Positions 7,881 through 39,435 of a DNA stretch of 39,435 bases are shown here, in pieces (the stretch's first letter is position 1; the number at the start of each line of letters is the position of its first letter). Both the position numbers and the translations under genes were made by a program. Source of the stretch: a virus; IMG/VR virus record IMGVR_UViG_3300044610_000341, positions 1 through 39,435 of that record. One strand, 5' to 3'. The notes beneath the pieces are model-generated. The model had not been told where the DNA came from and ran no database searches. It worked only from the letters and a program-made list of their open reading frames with translations.

Positions 7881-8440
7881 TGTGGCCATTTAAGAGAAAA
7901 CAACAACAGCTAAAAGAGTCAAGTTTAACGGGGAGTAAGATTGTGATCAATCACATTTTTACTGATAGTCTTGGCCGGAAATGGTATGAGTATGAAAATG
8001 CCTTGTCTATGCCTGCAAGAAGGGCTATTGCTGCTGAGGTGGCAACCAGGTTGCAGGATATGAATCTAACGAGGGATGTTTTTGCCAAATTGTTAGAGAA
8101 GATGAAGCAATATGCCAATGATGGGAACATTGTTGCTTTGTTTGGTGTTCTCAATGACATTGAGTTCAGGATGAACTTTGTTGGCGAAGAGGCTACGTTA
8201 ATTGACCTTGCATCTTGTTATTTTGTTATTGATGGAGAGGATGAAAGTAGTTTTAGTGAGGTAGAAAGGAAGAAGAAGGCTGAGTTTATCAAATCAGATG
8301 TGGAGGCTTTTAATTTTTTTGTCCAAAGGGCGTTCTCACTCACAATCAAATATTCACAAACATCGCAAACCGATATACTAAATTATTTGATACAGAACGC
8401 CCAAGAACAAGAAAAAGTGTTTCGTCATTTGATCAAATAG
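7880..8440 (+). CDS. Tail assembly chaperone, short form (G-like)
   Basis: This 186-residue protein lies just upstream of the tape measure gene, the usual position for lambda G-type chaperones. It is helical, with an acidic central part and a basic N-terminus. Near its 3' end, 8314-8320 reads T TTT TTT in frame (after codon AAT), an ideal -1 slippery heptamer. The -1 frame is open from 8314 to 8667. Ribosomes that do not slip stop at 8440. The chaperone coats the tape measure protein during tail assembly. Confidence 0.7.
   Translation: MWPFKRKQQQLKESSLTGSKIVINHIFTDSLGRKWYEYENALSMPARRAIAAEVATRLQDMNLTRDVFAKLLEKMKQYANDGNIVALFGVLNDIEFRMNFVGEEATLIDLASCYFVIDGEDESSFSEVERKKKAEFIKSDVEAFNFFVQRAFSLTIKYSQTSQTDILNYLIQNAQEQEKVFRHLIK
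8314..8320 (+). promoter_or_regulatory. Programmed -1 ribosomal frameshift site (T TTT TTT)
   Basis: The heptamer X-XXY-YYZ is met in the zero frame, with codons TTT (8315-8317) and TTT (8318-8320). A one-base slip back continues at TGT (8320-8322) and stays open to the stop at 8665-8667. I did not identify a definite downstream stimulatory structure. Confidence 0.75.
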
Positions 8441-29529: not shown

Positions 29530-29921
29530 AATATTTCAATTTGGTTGCCGGAATACTTTCGGAACTTCATGATCTCCAAGTGTCTTTCAGCTTTTTCCCT
29601 GATATTCTTTATTGCTGCTTCTCTTTGTTTTAGGCTTTTCACCCAGGCTGCAATCTCATCAATATCTTCAGAACAATAATAGCCTTTGCTTGTTGCTATT
29701 ACATTGGGATGACCATTCATTCTAACATATTGGATCACCTTTCTAATCCTTGAATCGGGAAGTCCTCTATGGAAATTCTTTTCAATAATCCCTGATATTT
29801 GGGAGTTTTTGATCACATTATTCTTTCCCTTGTTGCTTTTAAACCACTCAATTAGAGTGTTAGCGCATACCATCTCGAAATTGTTAAGTTCGATTGTAAT
29901 TTGTTCAAATCCTTTAAGCAT
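29526..29921 (-). CDS. Putative winged-helix DNA-binding protein (131 aa)
   Basis: I use the internal ATG at 29921, which overlaps the previous stop by 8 bp; longer starts overlap the upstream gene further. The pattern I-S-G-I-I-E-K-N-F then I-R-K-V-I-Q-Y-V-R-M-N-G and S-K-G-Y-Y-C-S looks like a winged helix with wing. The basic helix at the C-terminus follows. It is the last gene of the minus arm. It could regulate transcription near the convergence point. Moderate confidence in the fold only. Confidence 0.55.
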   Translation of the reverse strand: MLKGFEQITIELNNFEMVCANTLIEWFKSNKGKNNVIKNSQISGIIEKNFHRGLPDSRIRKVIQYVRMNGHPNVIATSKGYYCSEDIDEIAAWVKSLKQREAAIKNIREKAERHLEIMKFRKYSGNQIEIF

Positions 29922-30159
29922 TGTTTTCGGTGTTTTGGTTATAAACTTGGTTGAAGTATTCTGTGGATGTAATACTTTTTTCTTTTGCCTGATGTTCTTT
30001 GCCTTCCACATAGGCAAGTCTGATCTGTTGGCTTTCTACTTCTAAAAGTGCTTCTGCCTCATCAATGGCTACTTTAAAAATTACTTTCATTGTTGGTGCT
30101 TGACAGGATTCTCTTGCATCCTTTAGTCGAGCAATAAACTGTTGCATTGCTGTTCTCAT
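29914..30159 (-). CDS. Paralogue A of the small helical family (81 aa)
   Basis: This is one of eight related minus-strand proteins. It starts M-R-T-A-M-Q-Q-F-I, has E-S-Q-Q-I-R-L-A-Y-V-E-G in the middle and Y-F-N-Q-V-Y near the end. These three marks (T-A-M-Q start, I-x-x-A-Y-x-x-G, and Y-F/Y-x-x-x-Y) define the family. I recall such proteins in many Bacteroidota phages with no known function. It overlaps the next gene by 8 bp. Confidence 0.7.
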   Translation of the reverse strand: MRTAMQQFIARLKDARESCQAPTMKVIFKVAIDEAEALLEVESQQIRLAYVEGKEHQAKEKSITSTEYFNQVYNQNTENNA

Positions 30160-30171
30160 GGGTGTTGTTGT

Positions 30172-30534
30172 TTATGATTCTAAATAATTGTGAACTGATT
30201 GAATAAACTCATCAAGTGATCGGCAAACCTTTACGCAATATCCGGAGTCCTCAAGTATTTTGTGAGTTGATTTTTGGCTATCTGATAGCACTCCCTTAGA
30301 TGTTTTCATCTCAATAAATAGGGCATGATACTTATCAGATGGAATGCAAATAATCAAATCCGGCATTCCGAGCATAGCTCCTTCTTTCTTCAGGATATTC
30401 CATCTTTTAGCTCTTTGAACAGGTGTTCCACTGATGAATACACCGTTTGGAAAAGATGCTATCACTTGTTTTGGGAAGCTATACTTAAACCACTCCACAC
30501 ACTTTTGTTGGATATTGCTTTCCTCGTGCTTCAC
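30172..30534 (-). CDS. VRR-NUC domain nuclease
   Basis: The 120-residue protein shows the VRR-NUC pattern: P-N-G near residue 30, R41-A, G-M-P-D-L-I (57-61), F-I-E-M-K-T (E75, K77 as the E-x-K of the PD-(D/E)xK core) and S-D-S-Q-K (Q87). Stand-alone VRR-NUC proteins in phages are structure-selective nucleases. Here it may be paired with the annealing protein Bet or process replication intermediates. An ATGA overlap links it to the upstream gene. Confidence 0.85.
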   Translation of the reverse strand: MKHEESNIQQKCVEWFKYSFPKQVIASFPNGVFISGTPVQRAKRWNILKKEGAMLGMPDLIICIPSDKYHALFIEMKTSKGVLSDSQKSTHKILEDSGYCVKVCRSLDEFIQSVHNYLES

Positions 30535-30812
30535 TTCTTTTTGAAATACTTGTTCTGAATGGTAATTGTTTTCCCAATTTGACTACCTTTCTTCCAATTT
30601 ATTTCATTAATCTTTTGCTTGGCAGTCTTGGGCTCTCCATGACGAGCAAGAAAGGACTTCACTTGGGCTTTGGTTTTGCCACCTTGTGTTCCCCATTTTC
30701 CTCTTTGCGTATCTTGCCCTCCTTGTATGGTTTTTGTTTTACCATCCACTGAGCATTCGGCTTTCCAAGCCTTTCCTTTGGCTGTAGCCCTTGTGATTTT
30801 ACATTTTGCCAT
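30531..30812 (-). CDS. Basic hypothetical protein (93 aa)
   Basis: The protein is rich in Lys, Gln and Gly, with K-A-W-K-A-E-C-S-V-D-G-K, R-G-K-W-G-T-Q-G-G-K-T-K-A-Q-V and F-L-A-R-H-G. The charge suggests nucleic acid binding. Its ATG shares an A with the TAA of the XRE gene, and its stop overlaps the VRR-NUC start, so the three genes are likely translated together. Confidence 0.65.
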   Translation of the reverse strand: MAKCKITRATAKGKAWKAECSVDGKTKTIQGGQDTQRGKWGTQGGKTKAQVKSFLARHGEPKTAKQKINEINWKKGSQIGKTITIQNKYFKKK

Positions 30813-31009
30813 TATTCTATAAAGTATTTAAGATCTACGTTATAAAGGTCGGCTAATTTTCTCAATAATTCAATGTCAATTCTTTTTCTTTTGCCAGTTT
30901 CAAGTTTTGAGTAATCCGGCTGTCTCATTTTAAGATGGCTTGCTACAAGATGTTGTTTGTAGTGATTTTGCAATCTTAGATCTCTCATTTTATCAGTTAT
31001 CGCACTCAT
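30812..31009 (-). CDS. XRE/Cro-type transcription regulator
   Basis: The 65-residue protein is a single HTH_3 domain: M-R-D-L-R-L-Q-N-H-Y-K-Q then H-L-K-M-R-Q-P-D-Y-S-K-L-E-T-G-K-R and L-L-R-K-L-A-D-L-Y. It lacks a cleavage or dimerisation domain, as in Cro-like proteins. It could act at the divergent region 5205-5497 or at its own operon. No integrase accompanies it, so it need not mark lysogeny. Confidence 0.85.
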   Translation of the reverse strand: MSAITDKMRDLRLQNHYKQHLVASHLKMRQPDYSKLETGKRKRIDIELLRKLADLYNVDLKYFIE

Positions 31010-31010
31010 T

Positions 31011-31490
31011 TTATTGATTTTTTATAAAGCTACCGTTGATTGTTTTTCCTTGTCGGTTTTTGATTTCACTATAGGCTGAAAATATAGCTGAGTTGTAGTT
31101 TATTTTAAGTTGAGCAGCCAATATGATAAGCACTATTTGAATATCACCTATTGCATCTTTTTGCAGATACTTATCTTCCTTGAGTATTGCGCTGCAAAGC
31201 TCTCCTACTTCTTCTGCAAGTTTAAGAGTCTGACTCTTTATATTGTCATGATCTATCAGATCTCTTTGATTAGCCCAAGCAATAACCTTTTTTTGAATAT
31301 CATTTTGGTAAAGGCTAATCTCAACATTGTCATCTTCTCCATCATCCAATAGCTCATATATTTTTTCTCTTATTTCATTTGCTGTTGCTATAGATGCTGT
31401 GTACATATCAAGTCCGGCAGGATCGAATTTGATTCTATCCTTCATTTCATCTTTCTTGTGATCAATAAAGTCTACTATCTTATTTATCAT
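31011..31490 (-). CDS. MazG-like nucleotide pyrophosphohydrolase
   Basis: The 159-residue protein has the MazG core L-A-E-E-V-G-E-L (E-E-x-x-E), then a helix and D-A-I-G-D-I-Q-I-V-L. About 80 residues precede the core, which is longer than minimal phage MazG. MazG proteins hydrolyse NTPs or alarmones; in phages they are thought to adjust host nucleotide or ppGpp pools. It sits in the early arm next to the regulator. Confidence 0.75.
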   Translation of the reverse strand: MINKIVDFIDHKKDEMKDRIKFDPAGLDMYTASIATANEIREKIYELLDDGEDDNVEISLYQNDIQKKVIAWANQRDLIDHDNIKSQTLKLAEEVGELCSAILKEDKYLQKDAIGDIQIVLIILAAQLKINYNSAIFSAYSEIKNRQGKTINGSFIKNQ

Positions 31491-31572
31491 GGTTATTTGG
31501 TTTTTTGTCCTTTGATGCTAAAATCATCATTGTTTTTGTCATCACTAATAATATTATTGATAATATGATCAT
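31480..31572 (-). CDS. Possible 30-aa hydrophobic peptide
   Basis: The ORF starts with M-I-I-L-S-I-I-L-L-V and ends with a basic/Asn tail. It overlaps the previous stop by ATGA and the MazG start by 11 bp, so it fills the gap exactly as a coupled gene would. A membrane-active small peptide is possible. Its short length keeps confidence low. Confidence 0.3.
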   Translation of the reverse strand: MIILSIILLVMTKTMMILASKDKKPNNHDK

Positions 31573-31859
31573 TTATTCAATTGATTTACATATTCCCAAA
31601 GTGATTTGATGTCTTGGCAGATAAGTTTATCTTTATCTGTTGCTTCATACTTGTTGCGGCCAAAGTCATTCTCATAACAGAACCAAGTAATCCAATCACA
31701 ACCTTCTTTTCCAAAGTAGTGGCTCATCAGCAGTTCTATCACTTTGTTATATCCATCTGAGTGACTGTAAACGTCTACATTTAGCTTGTAGAGACTGTTT
31801 TCAGTCTTTGCTTGATAGTCAAGCGTTTGAATCATGTCTTTAAAATCTTTGTACTTCAT
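31569..31859 (-). CDS. Conserved hypothetical phage protein (96 aa)
   Basis: The acidic protein contains C-D-W-I-T-W-F-C-Y-E-N-D-F-G and ends with D-I-K-S-L-W-E-Y-V. I recognise this as a frequent unannotated protein in Bacteroidota phages. It is linked to the upstream paralogue by the SD/stop-start module (TAC AAA GGA GGT GAG CAA TGA). Function unknown. Confidence 0.7.
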   Translation of the reverse strand: MKYKDFKDMIQTLDYQAKTENSLYKLNVDVYSHSDGYNKVIELLMSHYFGKEGCDWITWFCYENDFGRNKYEATDKDKLICQDIKSLWEYVNQLNK

Positions 31860-32089
31860 TGCTCACCTCCTTTGTATGTTCTGTTATAGTAGCTTATTTC
31901 CGCTCCATCATAATTATCACCATCGTGGTCATACCCTTCACAGAATGCTTCAATAATCTGCTCCTTCTCTATTGCTTTGGCATTGCTGATTATTAGTTGT
32001 ATGTACAATAGCTTTTCATAAGGCACATAGTGTCCAATTTCAGCCTCAAGCCATTCAGCCATCTTTTCTACTGCTGTTCTCTTTTTCAT
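31856..32089 (-). CDS. Paralogue B of the small helical family (77 aa)
   Basis: The start (R-T-A-V-E-K-M-A-E-W-L), middle (K-E-Q-I-I-E-A-F-C-E-G) and end (S-Y-Y-N-R-T-Y-K-G-G-E-Q) fit the family. Its C-terminal Gly-Gly codons (GGA GGT) form the Shine-Dalgarno of the next gene. A perfect SD also stands before its own ATG inside the upstream gene. Confidence 0.75.
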   Translation of the reverse strand: MKKRTAVEKMAEWLEAEIGHYVPYEKLLYIQLIISNAKAIEKEQIIEAFCEGYDHDGDNYDGAEISYYNRTYKGGEQ

Positions 32090-32322
32090 TTGCCACCTCC
32101 CTTTTTCATATCCCTTCTAAGTTGCTTGGTCAGTGTCTCATGTCGTCTTGCTCTCATGATCGCCCTTGCATTCTTGATCGGCTTCTCCGTTTCTTTGTCA
32201 ATAACCATGAAGTCCATGACGTGAACGAGTCCGCAGTCGCAACAAGCCATCTTGTATCCCTTTTCGATGGGCATCTGCCATTCGTTTTTAGGAACTTGGT
32301 AAAAGTCTACTTTCTTTTTCAT
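32086..32322 (-). CDS. Cys-containing conserved phage protein (78 aa)
   Basis: It has K-M-A-C-C-D-C-G-L-V-H-V-M-D-F and a basic, Arg-rich second half (R-A-R-R-H-E-T-L). Similar CCDCGLxH proteins are frequent in phage genomes, without known role; the Cys/His set suggests a metal site. It ends G-G-G-K-stop and so carries the SD of the next gene, although it is not itself a member of the paralogous family. Confidence 0.7.
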   Translation of the reverse strand: MKKKVDFYQVPKNEWQMPIEKGYKMACCDCGLVHVMDFMVIDKETEKPIKNARAIMRARRHETLTKQLRRDMKKGGGK

Positions 32323-32558
32323 TTGCCACCTCCGTATGTTTCTCGATAGTGATCTTCAGAAACTTTGATTATTTTGTTTTTCATAGCATTTAAACCTAAA
32401 GTATCTGTGTGTTCTAACTTAGCTTTCATATAAGCCTCAATAATCTGCTCCTTCTCCATTTTCAAAGCATGATAATACAAGTGTTGCTTTTCTAATCTAT
32501 GCTCTAATGGTAATCGCTGAATTTCAGCAATTAGCCACTCTACTGCTGTTTGCTTCAT
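32319..32558 (-). CDS. Paralogue C of the small helical family (79 aa)
   Basis: It starts M-K-Q-T-A-V-E-W-L-I, has M-E-K-E-Q-I-I-E-A-Y-M and ends H-Y-R-E-T-Y-G-G-G-K. The usual G after the A-Y helix is replaced in this copy by K-A-K. It shares the SD/stop module on both sides (Y-G-G-G-K-stop into the next ATG). Confidence 0.8.
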   Translation of the reverse strand: MKQTAVEWLIAEIQRLPLEHRLEKQHLYYHALKMEKEQIIEAYMKAKLEHTDTLGLNAMKNKIIKVSEDHYRETYGGGK

Positions 32559-32806
32559 TTGTCACCTCCGTATTTTTCGTTAAAGTAAGATTCAGCCCTA
32601 TATGGATGTGACCTGTACCCATCAAGGAATGCTTCCATAATCTGATGCTTTTCTGATTCTAATCTTTTCTTAGCCTCTTCAATTATGACCTCAATTATAC
32701 TTATTGCCGCAGAGCCTGGATATTTGTCTATATTTTTTACATTATGCTTCTTAACAAAGTCTTCAAGACTTTCGACAAATTTTTGCATTTCTGTTTTCTT
32801 TTTCAT
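32555..32806 (-). CDS. Paralogue D of the small helical family (83 aa)
   Basis: The product starts M-K-K-K-T-E-M-Q-K-F, has S-E-K-H-Q-I-M-E-A-F-L-D-G-Y and ends S-Y-F-N-E-K-Y-G-G-D-K. It is the first gene of the module-linked run after the PP-loop gene, from which it is separated by 10 bp of A/T. The end encodes GGAGGT 5 nt before the next ATG. Confidence 0.8.
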   Translation of the reverse strand: MKKKTEMQKFVESLEDFVKKHNVKNIDKYPGSAAISIIEVIIEEAKKRLESEKHQIMEAFLDGYRSHPYRAESYFNEKYGGDK

Positions 32807-32816
32807 ATTTTTTTAT

Positions 32817-33671
32817 TTAGTCTGTACAAAATCCAGCCTGGCATCCGCTTCCTGTTCCAAAGTTAAATTCGCCTTGCAATCCAATTTTCTTAATATCATC
32901 ATAATTCATAACGCTTTTATAGTTGTATTTTGATTTTCTTTCCTCTCCAGAAAACCACTCCATTTTATTTGGATGATCATCCCAATTCTTTCTTAATTGC
33001 TGAACATCTTTCCAAAAACAACCAACACAATTACTATCTTCTTGAAAATCTATATTCTTTGTTTTCCAAAATTGTTGAACATGATAATGAGTGATTTTAT
33101 CATAGATTAAAGGATAATTTACAATACCCCAAAAAACATTTTGCCATTTATTCCTTGATCCTCTTTTGCCTACAATTATTTTAGAATGCAATTCCCTATC
33201 TTCTTTGGCTCTATGTTCTTCGTCATATCTAAATCCAATATTTGAAAAAACAGGAGTCATTTCATATTGAGGCATTATATGGTGATAGACAAAAGAGGCT
33301 ATTGGAATAATTTTCATTTCAGATGTACAATATCTCATAGCCATATTTGGAACAAGGTTTCCTTTTTTTTTATTTATGGTATCAAAACTTTCTCCCCTTA
33401 CCCAAATAATTTCTTTTCCCAACATTTGCTCTAAATCAAGCATTACTTTGAGGATTTTATCATCCTCAGCAGTTGCAATAAAATCACCATATTTTTCTGT
33501 AAAACCAAACTTAGATAGTTTGTCATTTGCCATTTGTACAATTTTTTTGTCTTTTGGCGCACATGAATGATTATTAATTGTGACAAGGGAAAAAATATTA
33601 AAATCAGCAGGATAATGTACCGCTAAATAAGAGCTCGTTTTTCCTCCACTTAAACTATTAATTGATTTCAT
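32817..33671 (-). CDS. PAPS reductase / PP-loop family protein (284 aa)
   Basis: The ATP-binding PP-loop S-G-G-K-T-S (8-13) opens the protein. R-Y-C-T-S-E-M-K-I (Cys115), N-C-V-G-C-F-W-K (Cys215, Cys218) and a terminal G-C-Q-A-G-F-C follow. This is the N-type ATP pyrophosphatase layout of PAPS reductase/DndC-like phage proteins; the Cys set could hold an Fe-S cluster. Reactions in the family include sulfur transfer and nucleotide or DNA modification. Which applies here cannot be told. It interrupts the paralogue cluster. It starts in overlap with the stop of the 54-aa gene upstream. Confidence 0.75.
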   Translation of the reverse strand: MKSINSLSGGKTSSYLAVHYPADFNIFSLVTINNHSCAPKDKKIVQMANDKLSKFGFTEKYGDFIATAEDDKILKVMLDLEQMLGKEIIWVRGESFDTINKKKGNLVPNMAMRYCTSEMKIIPIASFVYHHIMPQYEMTPVFSNIGFRYDEEHRAKEDRELHSKIIVGKRGSRNKWQNVFWGIVNYPLIYDKITHYHVQQFWKTKNIDFQEDSNCVGCFWKDVQQLRKNWDDHPNKMEWFSGEERKSKYNYKSVMNYDDIKKIGLQGEFNFGTGSGCQAGFCTD

Positions 33672-33832
33672 AAATATTTTGCATCTTTTGTTAATGTAAA
33701 TAATTGCTGGTTTACTGATTTAAGTCTTTTGCTCAGATTGTTTTTGAGATACAAAGTCTTTGCATCAATAAAAGTGTTTAGAAGTTCAATCCTTTTAGAT
33801 CTCAGTTCATCAATAGATGGTTTCTTGCTCAT
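33668..33832 (-). CDS. Small hypothetical protein (54 aa)
   Basis: The ORF starts M-S-K-K-P-S-I-D-E-L-R-S-K-R and is basic and helical, ending D-A-K-Y-L. It overlaps the stop of paralogue E by ATGA-type sharing and the start of the PP-loop gene by 4 bp, so it fits tightly between two genes. Function unknown. Confidence 0.6.
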   Translation of the reverse strand: MSKKPSIDELRSKRIELLNTFIDAKTLYLKNNLSKRLKSVNQQLFTLTKDAKYL

Positions 33833-34059
33833 AGTCCGGTAAAGTATTTTTGATAATAAGTATCCCCATCAGATGAAACACCAAAAGAAACATCACTGAT
33901 TGCAGAATCATAAGCCTCAGAGATATTCCTTTCTTCTACCTCCATTGCATCATCCATCAGCTCCTCAAACAGTTTGTGATTTGTGATAATCACCCCGTTA
34001 TTTCCTTTTGGAATGATTTTGAGCAGCATTTTTACTGCAGATTGTTGTTGTTCACTCAT
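33829..34059 (-). CDS. Paralogue E of the small helical family (76 aa)
   Basis: A divergent member: S-A-V-K-M-L-L near the start, V-E-E-R-N-I-S-E-A-Y-D-S in the middle and Y-Y-Q-K-Y-F-T-G at the end. It overlaps paralogue F by 8 bp. There is no SD module. Confidence 0.65.
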   Translation of the reverse strand: MSEQQQSAVKMLLKIIPKGNNGVIITNHKLFEELMDDAMEVEERNISEAYDSAISDVSFGVSSDGDTYYQKYFTGL

Positions 34060-34312
34060 AATCGTCTTTGTATTTGTTTTTTACGAATTTGTTGTTGTAA
34101 TATATGGCTCCGGCATCTACAGGAATATTGCTGTTGAACATTCCGTGATTCTGTCCGTCATTGAAAGCTACTATGATTGTTCTCTTCTCATCCCTTTGCA
34201 AATCAATGGCCATATCAATCAAGTCATCAAGCAGCTTTTTTTCGCTTATACTTGTTGTTTTGTCTTGTGCTTCGGCCAGGCTGCAAATTAGATTTTGCAT
34301 TGGTGTTTTCAT
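34052..34312 (-). CDS. Paralogue F of the small helical family (86 aa)
   Basis: It starts M-K-T-P-M-Q-N-L-I and has R-T-I-I-V-A-F-N-D-G-Q and Y-Y-N-N-K-F. Its first 86 bases also encode the end of paralogue G in another frame, an unusually long overlap. Confidence 0.7.
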   Translation of the reverse strand: MKTPMQNLICSLAEAQDKTTSISEKKLLDDLIDMAIDLQRDEKRTIIVAFNDGQNHGMFNSNIPVDAGAIYYNNKFVKNKYKDDYE

Positions 34313-34517
34313 TTGAATCAGTGTAAAGTTGTTTATAGTAGTCGTTTCCTTCTACATCTTTCGTTTCACTTGCTGTACTGATCCCCATTTCGTATGCGCT
34401 AATTAAAGATAGCTTTTCCTCTATAAGTATATTTTTTATCTTTTCTACAATTTCACAATTAAGAAAATCAATTTTTTCTCCTGTTCGTTCAATGAATTGT
34501 TGCATTGCTGTTTTCAT
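34227..34517 (-). CDS. Paralogue G of the small helical family, with C-terminal extension (96 aa)
   Basis: It begins M-K-T-A-M-Q-Q-F-I, almost as in paralogue A, and has L-S-L-I-S-A-Y-E-M-G and Y-Y-K-Q-L-Y. Other members stop within about 12 residues of this last mark. This one continues about 25 residues into a basic tail (K-Y-K-R-K-K-A-A) that overlaps paralogue F. Loss of the original stop by frameshift is likely. It is linked to paralogue H by ATGA. Confidence 0.65.
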   Translation of the reverse strand: MKTAMQQFIERTGEKIDFLNCEIVEKIKNILIEEKLSLISAYEMGISTASETKDVEGNDYYKQLYTDSNENTNAKSNLQPGRSTRQNNKYKRKKAA

Positions 34518-34729
34518 CTTGCGTATTTGGATTTAAAGTAATCTTCAGGTTTTTGGTGTACGTTAAATAATCCATCTCTCTTACCGTGCAAAAAAGCATC
34601 TTCAATTTGTTTCCTTTCCTCCTCTATTAGATCATCAATGGCATTTTTTATCATCCGTAGTTGTAAAAAGCAGCTTTGATCTTTATGATCAAGCATGACT
34701 TGTTTCAACTGATCTAACGGAGTTTGCAT
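34514..34729 (-). CDS. Paralogue H of the small helical family (71 aa)
   Basis: It starts M-Q-T-P-L-D-Q-L-K, has E-R-K-Q-I-E-D-A-F-L-H-G-K and ends Y-F-K-S-K-Y-A-R. It is the first copy in the run, just after the membrane protein gene. Stop and next start share ATGA. Confidence 0.7.
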   Translation of the reverse strand: MQTPLDQLKQVMLDHKDQSCFLQLRMIKNAIDDLIEEERKQIEDAFLHGKRDGLFNVHQKPEDYFKSKYAR

Positions 34730-35465: not shown

Positions 35466-35828
35466 TTAAAAAGGTAAACCAGTAGACTCTTCAAGGCCAT
35501 TAGCTACAGCAGGTTGAGCTTCTGTTTTTGCGCTGAGCAATTCAATATTCTCAGCTATGACTGAAACAAAGAGTCTTTTAACACCTTCCTTATCTGCTAC
35601 TTCATCCATTTGGATCTTTCCTTCAACAAGGACTTTTGTTCCCTTCTTGATGTATTTGTTTGAAAATTCTGCTGTTTTACCAAAGGTGGTGATTGTAAAC
35701 CATTGTGGTGGAGCATCCTTTTTAAACTTGTCATTTACAGCTACTCTGAAGTTACAGATGTCCGTTTTAGCTGTTTTTTTAAGCTGTGGTTCATTGCCCA
35801 CATTGCCGATTAAGATTATTTTATTCAT
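35466..35828 (-). CDS. ssb: Single-stranded DNA-binding protein
   Basis: The 120-residue OB-fold protein starts M-N-K-I-I-L-I-G-N-V-G-N-E-P and has N-F-R-V-A-V-N, Q-W-F-T-I-T-T-F-G-K-T-A and K-G-T-K-V-L-V-E-G-K-I. These are the standard SSB landmarks. The tail is short and ends G-L-P-F, close to the D-I-P-F tip that recruits partners. It coats ssDNA in replication and recombination together with the Bet/RecT-like protein. Confidence 0.95.
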   Translation of the reverse strand: MNKIILIGNVGNEPQLKKTAKTDICNFRVAVNDKFKKDAPPQWFTITTFGKTAEFSNKYIKKGTKVLVEGKIQMDEVADKEGVKRLFVSVIAENIELLSAKTEAQPAVANGLEESTGLPF

Positions 35829-36384: not shown

Positions 36385-37246
36385 ACTGCTGATGTTTAAA
36401 TTGTTCTACTAATGTTCTTAAATCTTTTTTTTCTTTGATGCAATGATCGTAAAAAGACTTCACACAAATCTCATAGCAAATCTTTTTTATTTCGGATTCA
36501 TAGGTTGCTTCATGCCCATCTGCGAGCACCTTTTCTGCTAAAATCCTAAACTGCTTTGCTTGGTCTTTGCTTGCTGCCTTTCTATTTTCAACATGCTTTT
36601 TGTGTATATCCAAGGCCAACTGATATACCTCTTTTTTCTCATCAATGCTCATGCTGATGAATCCAAGAGTCTCTTCCAATGCTTTGAAGATAGCCTGGAA
36701 TCCGTTCATGGTTCCTTCAAGTATTCCGGTGCTTTTATACTTTTCAAACTTTTGAACGATAAAAGTATCGGTAAATTGATAGAATAACATTTGCTTTTCA
36801 GCTTCATCAGGCTCATGCTCCTTTTCTTCCTTTTGATTTTGGATCTGAAATTCGAGCATTGCCTTACCCTTGTATTCAGCATAGCAATTCATGATCTTGC
36901 CAATGTAAACTGCATTGAAATTTTGAAAATGTTCAACATCACAATTCAGTTTTTTGGATGCAGCCAGTTTAAATGCCAATCTGATCTCATCCGGGGTAAA
37001 ATTGCTAAGTTCACTTTGAACGAAGTCAAGCAATACCATTTTTTGGGATTCTGAGGGCATATTTTCCGACTTTAATCCAATTAAGGTCATAACATACCGG
37101 AGAGCCTGTTTGACTTCCTCTATTGAGCTTAAATTGCGAATTTTGGTTTTATGGGCTGAAAGTACAATTTCCTTCCCGCTAAAAGTTGCGAATCGCATTC
37201 TCGAAATTTGATGCTCGATTGATGATTGTGTTTGGAGTTGATTCAT
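36377..37246 (-). CDS. Putative replication accessory protein (289 aa)
   Basis: The helical, charged protein lies after the initiator-like gene and overlaps it by 68 bp. It has F-T-P-D-E-I-R-L-A-F-K-L-A and V-Y-I-G-K-I-M-N-C-Y-A-E-Y, which I associate with Bacteroidota phage replication-region proteins (helicase-loader position). No Walker motif is present, so it is not itself an ATPase loader of the DnaC type. An internal ATG at 37198 would lessen the overlap. Confidence 0.5.
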   Translation of the reverse strand: MNQLQTQSSIEHQISRMRFATFSGKEIVLSAHKTKIRNLSSIEEVKQALRYVMTLIGLKSENMPSESQKMVLLDFVQSELSNFTPDEIRLAFKLAASKKLNCDVEHFQNFNAVYIGKIMNCYAEYKGKAMLEFQIQNQKEEKEHEPDEAEKQMLFYQFTDTFIVQKFEKYKSTGILEGTMNGFQAIFKALEETLGFISMSIDEKKEVYQLALDIHKKHVENRKAASKDQAKQFRILAEKVLADGHEATYESEIKKICYEICVKSFYDHCIKEKKDLRTLVEQFKHQQYE

Positions 37247-37943
37247 TTTTTTTGCGTCTTAACCAGTTGTTCAGCGTCAGGTAAACGCTTGTGTACTTGG
37301 TTGTTAGATTTTTGTGGTTTTCCATTTGCAGCAAGGTTTCTTCGATCTGAATCTGAGTGTAATTCTCGATCAGCTTGTCACATTGCTCCGGTGTGAGCTG
37401 AAATTTCAACTTTGTCACCTGAGGGCAATTTTGGTTCACATACCGTTCAAGCAAATGCAATTCTTTTTTTTCTATATTTTTTTTATCTTCTATGTTAATA
37501 GAAGATATATATGAAGATGAAGGGGTTGGATTTTGCTTAGAAGTTTGGTTATCCAAATTCCTAACCTTCCGTTTCAAATTAGGATTACCTCCAAGTGAAC
37601 CAGATTCGCGTCTTAAATTTCTAATCCGTTCATCCTCAACCATTCTCTTAGAATAATAGACTCCAAAATCATCTATTTTTAAGATATTATACCTACGAAG
37701 TTCATAGAACACTAAGTCGAAGTTTTTCTTTGATAAACCTAACATTTTTTTCAAGTTTTCAGAACAAATTGGTACACCTTGAATCTTCAAATATCCAGGT
37801 TCATCACTCAAAAACATCAAGCATAAGATGTCAATCCATGCTCCTCGTGTCTCCAATGCACACATGCGCAATGCAGGATCAGTAAGCCAATCAGATGGAT
37901 AAAACTGAAAAGCCGGAGCTTTAATCTTTGGTGTTTTGCTCAT
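37179..37943 (-). CDS. Replication initiation-like protein (254 aa)
   Basis: The N-terminus holds F-Q-F-Y-P-S-D-W-L and A-L-E-T-R-G-A-W-I-D-I-L-C-L-M, the pattern of phage replication proteins with an O/YdaU/DUF1376-type winged helix. A basic linker (L-R-R-E-S-G-S-L-G-G-N-P-N) and a C-terminal domain follow (Y-T-S-V-Y-L-T-L-N-N-W). It likely binds the origin and recruits the host helicase. No helicase is encoded in the window. Confidence 0.7.
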   Translation of the reverse strand: MSKTPKIKAPAFQFYPSDWLTDPALRMCALETRGAWIDILCLMFLSDEPGYLKIQGVPICSENLKKMLGLSKKNFDLVFYELRRYNILKIDDFGVYYSKRMVEDERIRNLRRESGSLGGNPNLKRKVRNLDNQTSKQNPTPSSSYISSINIEDKKNIEKKELHLLERYVNQNCPQVTKLKFQLTPEQCDKLIENYTQIQIEETLLQMENHKNLTTKYTSVYLTLNNWLRRKKNESTPNTIINRASNFENAIRNF

Positions 37944-38385: not shown

Positions 38386-39240
38386 TTATTGATTTTTATT
38401 ATTTAAAAGTTCAATTTTATTTGCTCCTGCTTCCAGGAGTTCTTTGCTTGTTTCTTCTCTGAGTAGATCGGCTACCTCGTCTACAGTATTGCAGCTATTT
38501 ATCTTTTCAATCATATTATCGTATCTATCAAATTCAGTGATAACCGCTTTACGATCAGTAACAAGTTTCTTAAACTCTTCATTGCTATGAAGATCAGGAT
38601 TTGATTTCCATATATCGGCAAGACAATCCATTTCAAGGCAAACGAGAATTTTATCATATACCTCTTGGTTAGAAACCATTAAAGGTATTTTTTCTTGTTT
38701 AGACTCAACTAAAATTTGATTTTGGCCTACTTGTTCCGGTAACTCCTCAGCAGTATAGGGCATGCCTCCAAGCTCATCCGAAAAACACAGTCTGAACCCT
38801 TGTGCAGTAGCTACTTTTTTGATCATAGTCAATGGTTTTTCACTCCAAAACTTTGTTGGCCTTCCTTCCTTAGTCCTTTGAACATATTCTTTGTATTCTA
38901 CCTCATGGATAAAAGGATGGTTAAAGTCTTTTCTATGGATGGTAATTGTGGCCTTCAGATTGTCTTCAGCAATAGATCCACTGGTAACTACATTCCAACC
39001 CGATAGCAGTCCTGATCGTTCAGCTCGTTTTATGTAAGTCTCATAACCTACAATTACACTAAATGAATTTCCATACTTGCTTGCATAGATCTCACGTTTA
39101 AACGGATTCAGGCCGAATCCTTGTGCAATTTCAATAAATTGAGTCACTTCAGCTTGGCTTAGATTGGTTGCCAAATTCATTGTACGCAAATACGTCTTAA
39201 TTTTCTCTACATCGAATGTAGGCTTCTCTAATTGATTCAT
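38386..39240 (-). CDS. bet: Bet/RecT-type single-strand annealing protein
   Basis: The 284-residue protein matches lambda Bet at several points: G-L-N-P-F-K-R-E-I-Y-A, V-G-Y-E-T-Y-I-K-R-A, T-I-H-R-K-D-F-N-H-P-F and W-S-E-K-P-L-T-M-I-K-K-V-A, followed by G-F-R-L-C-F. It would anneal ssDNA in recombination or replication. I use the ATG at 39240 rather than an upstream TTG. No lambda-type exonuclease is seen nearby; the VRR-NUC protein is a possible partner. SSB lies 2.6 kb further on. Confidence 0.85.
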   Translation of the reverse strand: MNQLEKPTFDVEKIKTYLRTMNLATNLSQAEVTQFIEIAQGFGLNPFKREIYASKYGNSFSVIVGYETYIKRAERSGLLSGWNVVTSGSIAEDNLKATITIHRKDFNHPFIHEVEYKEYVQRTKEGRPTKFWSEKPLTMIKKVATAQGFRLCFSDELGGMPYTAEELPEQVGQNQILVESKQEKIPLMVSNQEVYDKILVCLEMDCLADIWKSNPDLHSNEEFKKLVTDRKAVITEFDRYDNMIEKINSCNTVDEVADLLREETSKELLEAGANKIELLNNKNQ

Positions 39241-39256
39241 AATTTTTTGTTTTAGA

Positions 39257-39435
39257 TTATTTTGCAAGTGTTATTTCAATGGTGGTTTTACTTGTTTTCA
39301 CCGGAGGGTATAGATCAGTTAATTCACCTGTCTCTTCATCCAATACAGTTATCTTTTGCTTCAGGCTTTTTAGTTGATCTTCCAAATCTTTTCTAATTGC
39401 CGCTTGCTCATCCTCTTTTGACTTTAAGGCCTTCC
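39257..39435 (-). CDS. Hypothetical protein, C-terminal end of the join-spanning gene (plus duplicated part)
   Basis: This is the end of the protein that begins at position 432. Bases 39302-39435 duplicate 1-134, and only 39257-39301 (14 codons plus TAA) are new. The frame is continuous across the join (Tyr-Pro-Pro, then Val-Lys-Thr-Ser-Lys), which supports a true circle. The single difference between the copies (T at 127, G at 39428) changes an Ala codon from GCA to GCC and is silent. The real bet start at 39240 lies 16 bp beyond the stop. Confidence 0.75.
   Translation of the reverse strand, partial: KALKSKEDEQAAIRKDLEDQLKSLKQKITVLDEETGELTDLYPPVKTSKTTIEITLAK
39302..39435. repeat. Right copy of the 134-bp terminal direct repeat
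   Basis: This copy has the same orientation as 1-134. The first 126 bases are identical, then there is one T/G difference, then seven more identical bases. The difference is synonymous in the spanning gene. Confidence 0.9.

Follow-up and report, generated by a model that had tools for sequence, protein, structure and literature searches.

The window analysed here is a virus record of 39,435 bases (IMG/VR record IMGVR_UViG_3300044610_000341), examined whole. Between positions 29914 and 34729 its minus strand carries eight short open reading frames (ORFs) that an earlier note, written from the sequence alone, had read as amplified and diverged copies of one small protein family, and all eight were found where it had placed them. 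Five copies form what is called here the fixed branch, namely 29914-30159 (start TAMQQF; 81 amino acids, aa), 33829-34059 (SEQQQSAV; 76 aa), 34052-34312 (TPMQNL; 86 aa), 34227-34517 (TAMQQF; 96 aa) and 34514-34729 (TPLDQL; 71 aa). Two copies starting with TAV, 31856-32089 (TAVEKM) and 32319-32558 (TAVEWL), represent the shuffling branch, and copy 32555-32806 (KTEMQKF; 83 aa) has a Shine-Dalgarno-type joint at its end. Each copy is named below by its first coordinate.

Homology was evaluated by leave-one-out searches in which a hidden Markov model profile of seven copies was run against the eighth, 2,000 shuffled sequences and all ORFs of the window. Every copy was recovered (E 5e-14 to 5e-5), with 20.8-49.6 bits for true copies and 9.6-12.9 bits for the best shuffle. 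The E values were 5.3e-14, 1.5e-6, 2.2e-11, 2e-7 and 4.8e-10 for the fixed copies in the above order, 3e-8 and 5e-5 for copies 31856 and 32319, and 4.4e-6 for copy 32555. These results establish the common ancestry of all eight. The leave-one-out profiles detected no ninth copy among the window ORFs, and an independently built profile of 81 sequences matched exactly these eight. Divergence is considerable, the other copies being 21-30% identical to copy 34227. The three marks said to be shared by the copies, at start, centre and end, generally hold, but the centre glycine is absent in copies 32319 and 33829 and in some relatives, and the T-A/P-M/V start does not fit copy 33829, which begins MSEQQQSAV. 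Two diverged copies were modelled with AlphaFold (pTM 0.71-0.72). Copy 31856 is predicted to form helices at residues 6-18, 24-52 and 63-72 (13, 29 and 10 residues; pLDDT 87.7) and copy 34052 at residues 4-18, 22-55 and 67-80 (15, 34 and 14 residues; pLDDT 86.1), that is, a common short-long-short plan of three helices. The copies are alike in profiles and, for the two modelled, in fold plan, the two points on which the proposed family was to stand or fall.

Amplification is strong, as had been proposed: most of 50 records have one or two copies, and the highest counts are reached by the window, with eight, and its sister phage L005, with nine. A single scan with a small alignment gave at least 399 confirmed viral loci, and the collected set comprises 284 members at 154 loci. 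The family is found in over 400 viral contigs but is rare in hosts: one scan of 84,980 species genomes gave three matches, two in records with the title of a Bacteroidota metagenome-assembled genome, and a profile search of 395 Bacteroidota genomes gave one positive, namely the known hit that had been taken as centre. Among phage isolates only Flavobacterium elemoviruses match securely (E 0.004 by single-protein tblastn, 3.9e-17 with a profile; the elemovirus copy is YP_010108831.1, gp14), and tblastn of copy 29914 against phage isolates gave no match. Sequence searches of 81 members in Pfam, PHROG and PDB returned scattered matches, each to at most 3 of the 81 and none better than E 0.002. 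Structure libraries contained no confident match to the models, and viral predicted structures gave uncharacterised phage proteins only. PADLOC, which covers defence and hardly anti-defence, assigned no family common to more than one of the 81 members. An earlier description of the family was not found in the open-access literature, and one may exist elsewhere. The family is thus very common among viruses and not catalogued, in line with the earlier note, which described a family widespread in Bacteroidota phages without a known role.

Gene halves and DNA words

Gene halves were compared within each branch, a half being scored as shared at 70% identity or more and as unrelated at 40% or less. 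In the shuffling branch (185 distinct genes), 42 of the 58 pairs sharing a C-half have N-halves at most 40% identical, 10 of 23 pairs sharing an N-half have unrelated C-halves, and the identities of the two halves are scarcely correlated (r=0.11). For the fixed branch the corresponding figures are 4/78 pairs, 0/65 pairs and r=0.81. This comparison indicates that N- and C-halves have been exchanged in the shuffling branch at the central EKEQI mark and that genes of the fixed branch are inherited as whole units.

Both shuffling copies of the window provide examples. Copy 31856 and the L005 gene at 8001-8264 have N-halves that are 96% identical and C-halves that are unrelated; conversely, the C-half of copy 31856 is 100% identical to those of genes in L004 and L006 that have unrelated N-halves. 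At the nucleotide level the window and L005 match as far as GAGAAGGAGCAGATT and diverge at once thereafter, directly 3' of the central word of this copy (GCCAAAGCAATAGAGAAGGAGCAGATT, 31955-31981, minus strand). Copy 32319 shares its N-half (80% identity) with the L009 gene at 8213, the C-half of which is unrelated (24%). Three members (L133 3879-4232, L055 594-929 and L147 7917-8285) have C-halves apparently unrelated to the family. The shared halves of swapped pairs show pN/pS of 0.30 and 0.41, and in 10 of 20 independent pairs they differ by at least 25% at synonymous sites, suggesting that the swaps are old and that each half is under selection. A tRNA-like sequence lies directly 3' of the swapped cassette in L005 (8270-8345) and is not found in the window at 31859.

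The fixed copies have orthologues in two to ten related phage contigs, and wherever dS is sufficient for a judgement their dN/dS is mostly 0.07-0.2. Copy 34514 is 56-97% identical to its orthologues in 10 contigs, with a dN/dS of 0.09-0.21 for the diverged orthologues; copy 29914 gives 0.12-0.14 against six diverged phages and copy 34052 about 0.1; L005 and L007 carry orthologues of copy 33829 and have copy 34227 at the same place. The rapid diversification that had been suggested for all eight copies therefore does not describe these five, which are orthologues conserved in the phage lineage under purifying selection; positive selection on them is ruled out by the same ratios. Four fixed genes (34729-33829) form a conserved overlapping row that is also present in L005 and L007, and copies 34227 and 34514 overlap by 4 bases. 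The overlap of copies 34227 and 34052 is unusually long (86 bases in different frames, 34227-34312) and is retained in L005, L007 and L009.

The three protein marks double as DNA words with family-specific codons (GAGAAGGAGCAGATA). In the shuffling branch these words are ACAGCAGTAGAATGG at the start codon, GCCAAAGAAATGGAGAAGGAGCAGATA at the centre and TACTACAACGAAAC...TTTAAATCAGAATAAG-ATG at the end, the last of these forming a joint to the next gene and being represented by GGAGGTGACAAATGA in the lineage of the window. The window has, again on the minus strand, a start word ACAGCAGTAGAA at 32066-32077, marked by its codon bias, and the central word ATGGAGAAGGAGCAGATT of copy 32319 at 32442-32459. 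Codon usage was counted in 179 members below 60% identity, with the rest of the genes as background and positions numbered by alignment column. GAG encodes the second motif E (E197) in 80% of cases (background 26%), CAG the motif Q (Q198) in 76% (26%), AAG the motif K (K196) in 64% (23%) and GCC the conserved A preceding the motif (A169) in 61% (17%), with CAA in 99% at the Q immediately before that A (Q168). Similar values were obtained elsewhere in the marks: GCA at A105 in 87% (background 52%) and, in the end word, AAC at N276 in 77% (38%) and GAA at E277 in 99%. The mean corrected G/n of conserved columns was 0.36 for the family, 0.25 for a companion family described below and 0.02-0.09 for two ordinary families, these controls being taken from the same contigs. 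In the fixed branch the first motif E stands at its background value (GAG 8/41) and the bias at Q is much weaker (CAG 12/27).

Two other causes of the bias were rejected. Codon-pair or context effects do not explain it, the same tripeptides being unbiased in other long ORFs (KEQ with GAG 37%, EQI with CAG 39%), nor does the search pattern, because members lacking either pattern still have GAG in 32/37 and CAG in 42/56 cases. The words are nearly restricted to the family, with 24-62 occurrences inside it and 0-2 outside. A search of 2.9 million viral contigs found the exact 27-base central word in at least 120 viral stretches, and the same holds for the exact 23-base joint word.

The joint TTTAAATCAGAATAAG-ATG links many unrelated small genes and is read in more than one frame. 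Among its 171 distinct occurrences, the upstream sequence in frame A (..TFKSE*) is a family ORF in 94 cases and another ORF in 15; in frame C (..NL*, with the stop from TTTAAA) it is a member of a second family in 4 and another ORF in 13. Downstream, 113 unrelated ORFs, 32 members of the present family and 8 of the second family were counted. Some occurrences lie outside long ORFs and some beside sequences that resemble tRNA genes, as seems to be the case in L129 and L276. Since the codon bias exceeds what context explains and the joint is read in more than one frame, the words are conserved at the level of DNA and not of the peptide.

In the window, four joints stand in a row with starts at 32558, 32322, 32089 and 31859. 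Each combines gene end, Shine-Dalgarno sequence and next start: GGAGGTGACAAATGA at 32555-32569, GGAGGTGGCAAATGA at 32319-32333 and at 32086-32100, and GGAGGTGAGCAATGA at 31856-31870, all on the minus strand. Those at 32322 and 31859 introduce non-family genes, the former an unrelated gene of 78 aa (32086-32322, minus strand) that has the same joint word at either end. An A at positions -3, -6, -12 and -13 favours initiation in Flavobacterium johnsoniae (PMC6847099), and the joint word puts A at exactly these positions, which suggests that it probably serves as a leader besides being a joint. The only convincing GGAGG-type Shine-Dalgarno sites of the window are those of the four joints in this cassette block (31856-32569). 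Such sites are reportedly passed over by Bacteroidota ribosomes, except by those without bS21 (PMC9976891); if the host belongs to this phylum, the joint-led genes might therefore depend on a special class of ribosomes for their translation.

Proposed recombination at the words and alternative explanations

The homology of the copies, the half-swaps and their age, the conservation of the words as DNA, the sharing of joints by unrelated genes and the purifying selection are directly supported by these data. We consider it likely that word-directed homologous recombination builds these small genes. New proteins of the mobile branch would be made by recombination of gene halves, between words of different copies, in phages co-infecting one host. 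Such an exchange would move the N-half (helix 1 with the initial portion of the long helix) independently of the C-half (helix 3 with the remainder of the long helix), and whole unrelated small genes could be inserted between joints. The joint would supply a stop codon and a translation start, so that any exchanged cassette would be expressed in frame. Red/RecT proteins recombine short, diverged DNA (PMC2327257, PMC3945230), and in the lineage of the window a RecT/Bet single-strand annealing protein (38386-39267, minus strand; Pfam RecT, E 1.5e-27) together with the single-strand DNA-binding protein SSB (35466-35828, minus strand; Pfam SSB, E 2e-28) would be plausible agents. The diversity of the TAV branch appears to stem from half-swapping at conserved DNA words rather than from fast substitution.

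Several observations weigh against word-directed recombination or limit it. The central word holds 12 of 51 non-redundant breakpoints, that is 24% where 27% would be expected if they were uniform, and most of the remaining ones map to the end words, which are conserved in any case. A conserved word conceals the exact crossover point inside it and conserved end words attract change points, so the breakpoint histogram is not decisive by itself; the comparison of halves in the two branches, not this histogram, bears the argument. Copy 32555 is not cleanly assignable to either branch, and the joints of the window belong to a different dialect from the commonest one. RecT was found in only 6/48 records, essentially those of the window lineage, and ERF in 3/48, in a set where many records are fragments and the search was confined to these two recombinases. 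No single phage recombinase therefore accounts for all swaps, and if word-directed recombination is right, other recombinases must act elsewhere. Finally, the evidence consists of the products of recombination and not of recombination itself.

Five other explanations were considered. The cassettes could be mostly selfish, short genes spreading through matching, recombining ends with little benefit to the phage. Remnants occur in L154, where a start word leads into an ORF of 13 codons, and in L129 and L134, where end words are out of frame; these remnants and the joints common to unrelated genes agree with this idea, which we nevertheless hold to be unlikely given the purifying selection acting on both halves (pN/pS 0.30, 0.41) and on the fixed copies. 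The words could instead be kept for a DNA or RNA function of their own, such as ribosome pausing or initiation, or RNA-protein or small-RNA binding, recombination being incidental to their likeness. The joint word does meet the A-3, A-6, A-12, A-13 rule for Flavobacterium starts (PMC6847099) and is in part probably a leader, and the central word contains AAGGAG. That word is intragenic, however, and no conserved start codon follows it, for which reason internal translation initiation there was rejected; moreover, the fixed branch retains the protein motif with the word largely lost, and the half-swaps stand whatever causes word conservation. We therefore regard an independent function as the main cause as distinctly unlikely.

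It seems improbable that the copies assemble into a single hetero-oligomer or are DNA-binding proteins of a histone-like kind. The conserved overlapping row of four fixed genes (34729-33829, in L005 and L007 too) would suit an oligomer, and the short-long-short helix order resembles histone folds, with weak Foldseek and VIA matches (copy 31856, Z 2.6-3.5). These superpositions have an rmsd of about 8 Å and Foldseek E values above 4, however, and no histone is among the 50 matches listed for the model of copy 34052. Ordinary duplication followed by fast divergence in an arms race with the host, recombination playing a minor part, would account for eight copies of low mutual identity in one phage; it is very improbable in view of the dN/dS of the fixed copies, mostly 0.07-0.2, and of the TAV-branch pairs sharing a C-half, which mostly have unrelated N-halves. 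Assembly chimeras, in which repeated words of 15-27 bases misled metagenome assembly, are scarcely credible: the contigs are nearly all metagenomic and the words do recur within them, but the many synonymous differences in the shared halves (identical codons in only 2/48 pairs, at least 25% difference in 10 of 20 independent ones) show that these do not derive from a single set of reads, reading frames are intact, and the isolate phage elemoA_7-9A has recognisable start and central words.

Family genes neighbour genes of DNA metabolism (DnaA-C-type HTH, HNH, DnaB, NinG, SSB and Mom), and from this location their products are probably made early in infection. A binding module or inhibitor with two surfaces would suit a small helical protein whose halves are exchangeable and selected separately; we tentatively propose that these proteins could be small modules that bind or inhibit host or defence proteins and whose two surfaces are recombined. 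The roles that the earlier note offered as examples, namely multiple host targets, anti-defence or a mixed complex, are conjectural. It is also possible, if somewhat doubtful, that Bacteroidota viruses have in common a joint grammar of a few DNA words doubling as stop/start leaders. If so, very different phages would freely recombine gene halves and unrelated small early genes in their hundreds, and homologous recombination would give a combinatorial repertoire of small host-acting proteins.

Related systems and neighbouring genes

The principle of recombination at conserved boundary words is known, and the present case is of more interest as word-directed gene building than as amplification. 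Phage mosaicism by homologous recombination at short conserved boundary sequences between genes has been discussed (PMC3233612). As in that scheme, short DNA is conserved at module borders with differing genes exchanged between them, and the segments on either side of the words are exchanged independently; here, however, one of the words is internal to a small gene, where it divides the protein into two exchangeable halves, and a single joint word recurs at many unrelated genes of many different viruses. It has long been asked whether mosaicism arises in this manner or through random joining followed by selection. The words are directly readable here in at least 100 contigs, one of them intragenic between two selected, exchangeable halves, and the question becomes testable, because crossover points can be predicted and the words recoded synonymously. 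In addition, a very common uncatalogued early protein family is named, with an isolate (Flavobacterium elemovirus) suited to tests of function.

In the HsdS subunits of type I restriction systems, conserved stretches flank two variable target-recognition halves that are shuffled by recombination. The family halves are likewise recombined into new combinations between conserved stretches. The present proteins nevertheless have no sequence relation to HsdS (the eight window copies match no significant Pfam family, so that Methylase_S homology is absent), they comprise 70-85 residues in three helices, neither inverted repeats nor a dedicated recombinase were seen for them, and the exchange takes place between viruses and not, as in HsdS phase variation, in one genome. 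Since whole halves are swapped, there is no call for a diversity-generating retroelement. The relaxed recombination of lambda Red/RecT (PMC2327257, PMC3945230) is brought to mind by the RecT and SSB genes of the window; in the available DNA of most family-bearing viruses, by contrast, neither RecT nor ERF could be detected.

The early genes of the window sit on the minus strand and include one for a replisome-organiser-like protein (37179-37943). Within the region of the eight copies lie genes for a VRR-NUC nuclease (30172-30534) and a MazG-like protein (31011-31490). A PAPS-reductase-like gene (32817-33671, minus strand; PHROG 424, E 2.2e-19) separates copies 32555 and 33829; it is not at the corresponding place in L005 and resembles another cassette.

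Recurrent peptide modules (GAKWMQKQ-like, KLYTEFEV and SDEEIEKAA) are fused or joined to family genes (L016 1122-1559, L055 594-929, L123 7827-8216 and L167 around 200), hinting at further exchangeable small modules. A second small family, which also looks uncatalogued (MTPKEKA...AKQCALIAVDEI...YWxxVKQEIEKL), accompanies the present one at 42 of the 154 loci, for example at L094 7316-7528, L154 4453-4889 and L138 989-1231. It has the same three-mark layout, neighbourhood and joint words, but its sequence is unrelated and the codon bias of its marks is weaker. The ORF at L106 3682-3921, which ends in NETFKQEIEKL, is a chimera of the two families.

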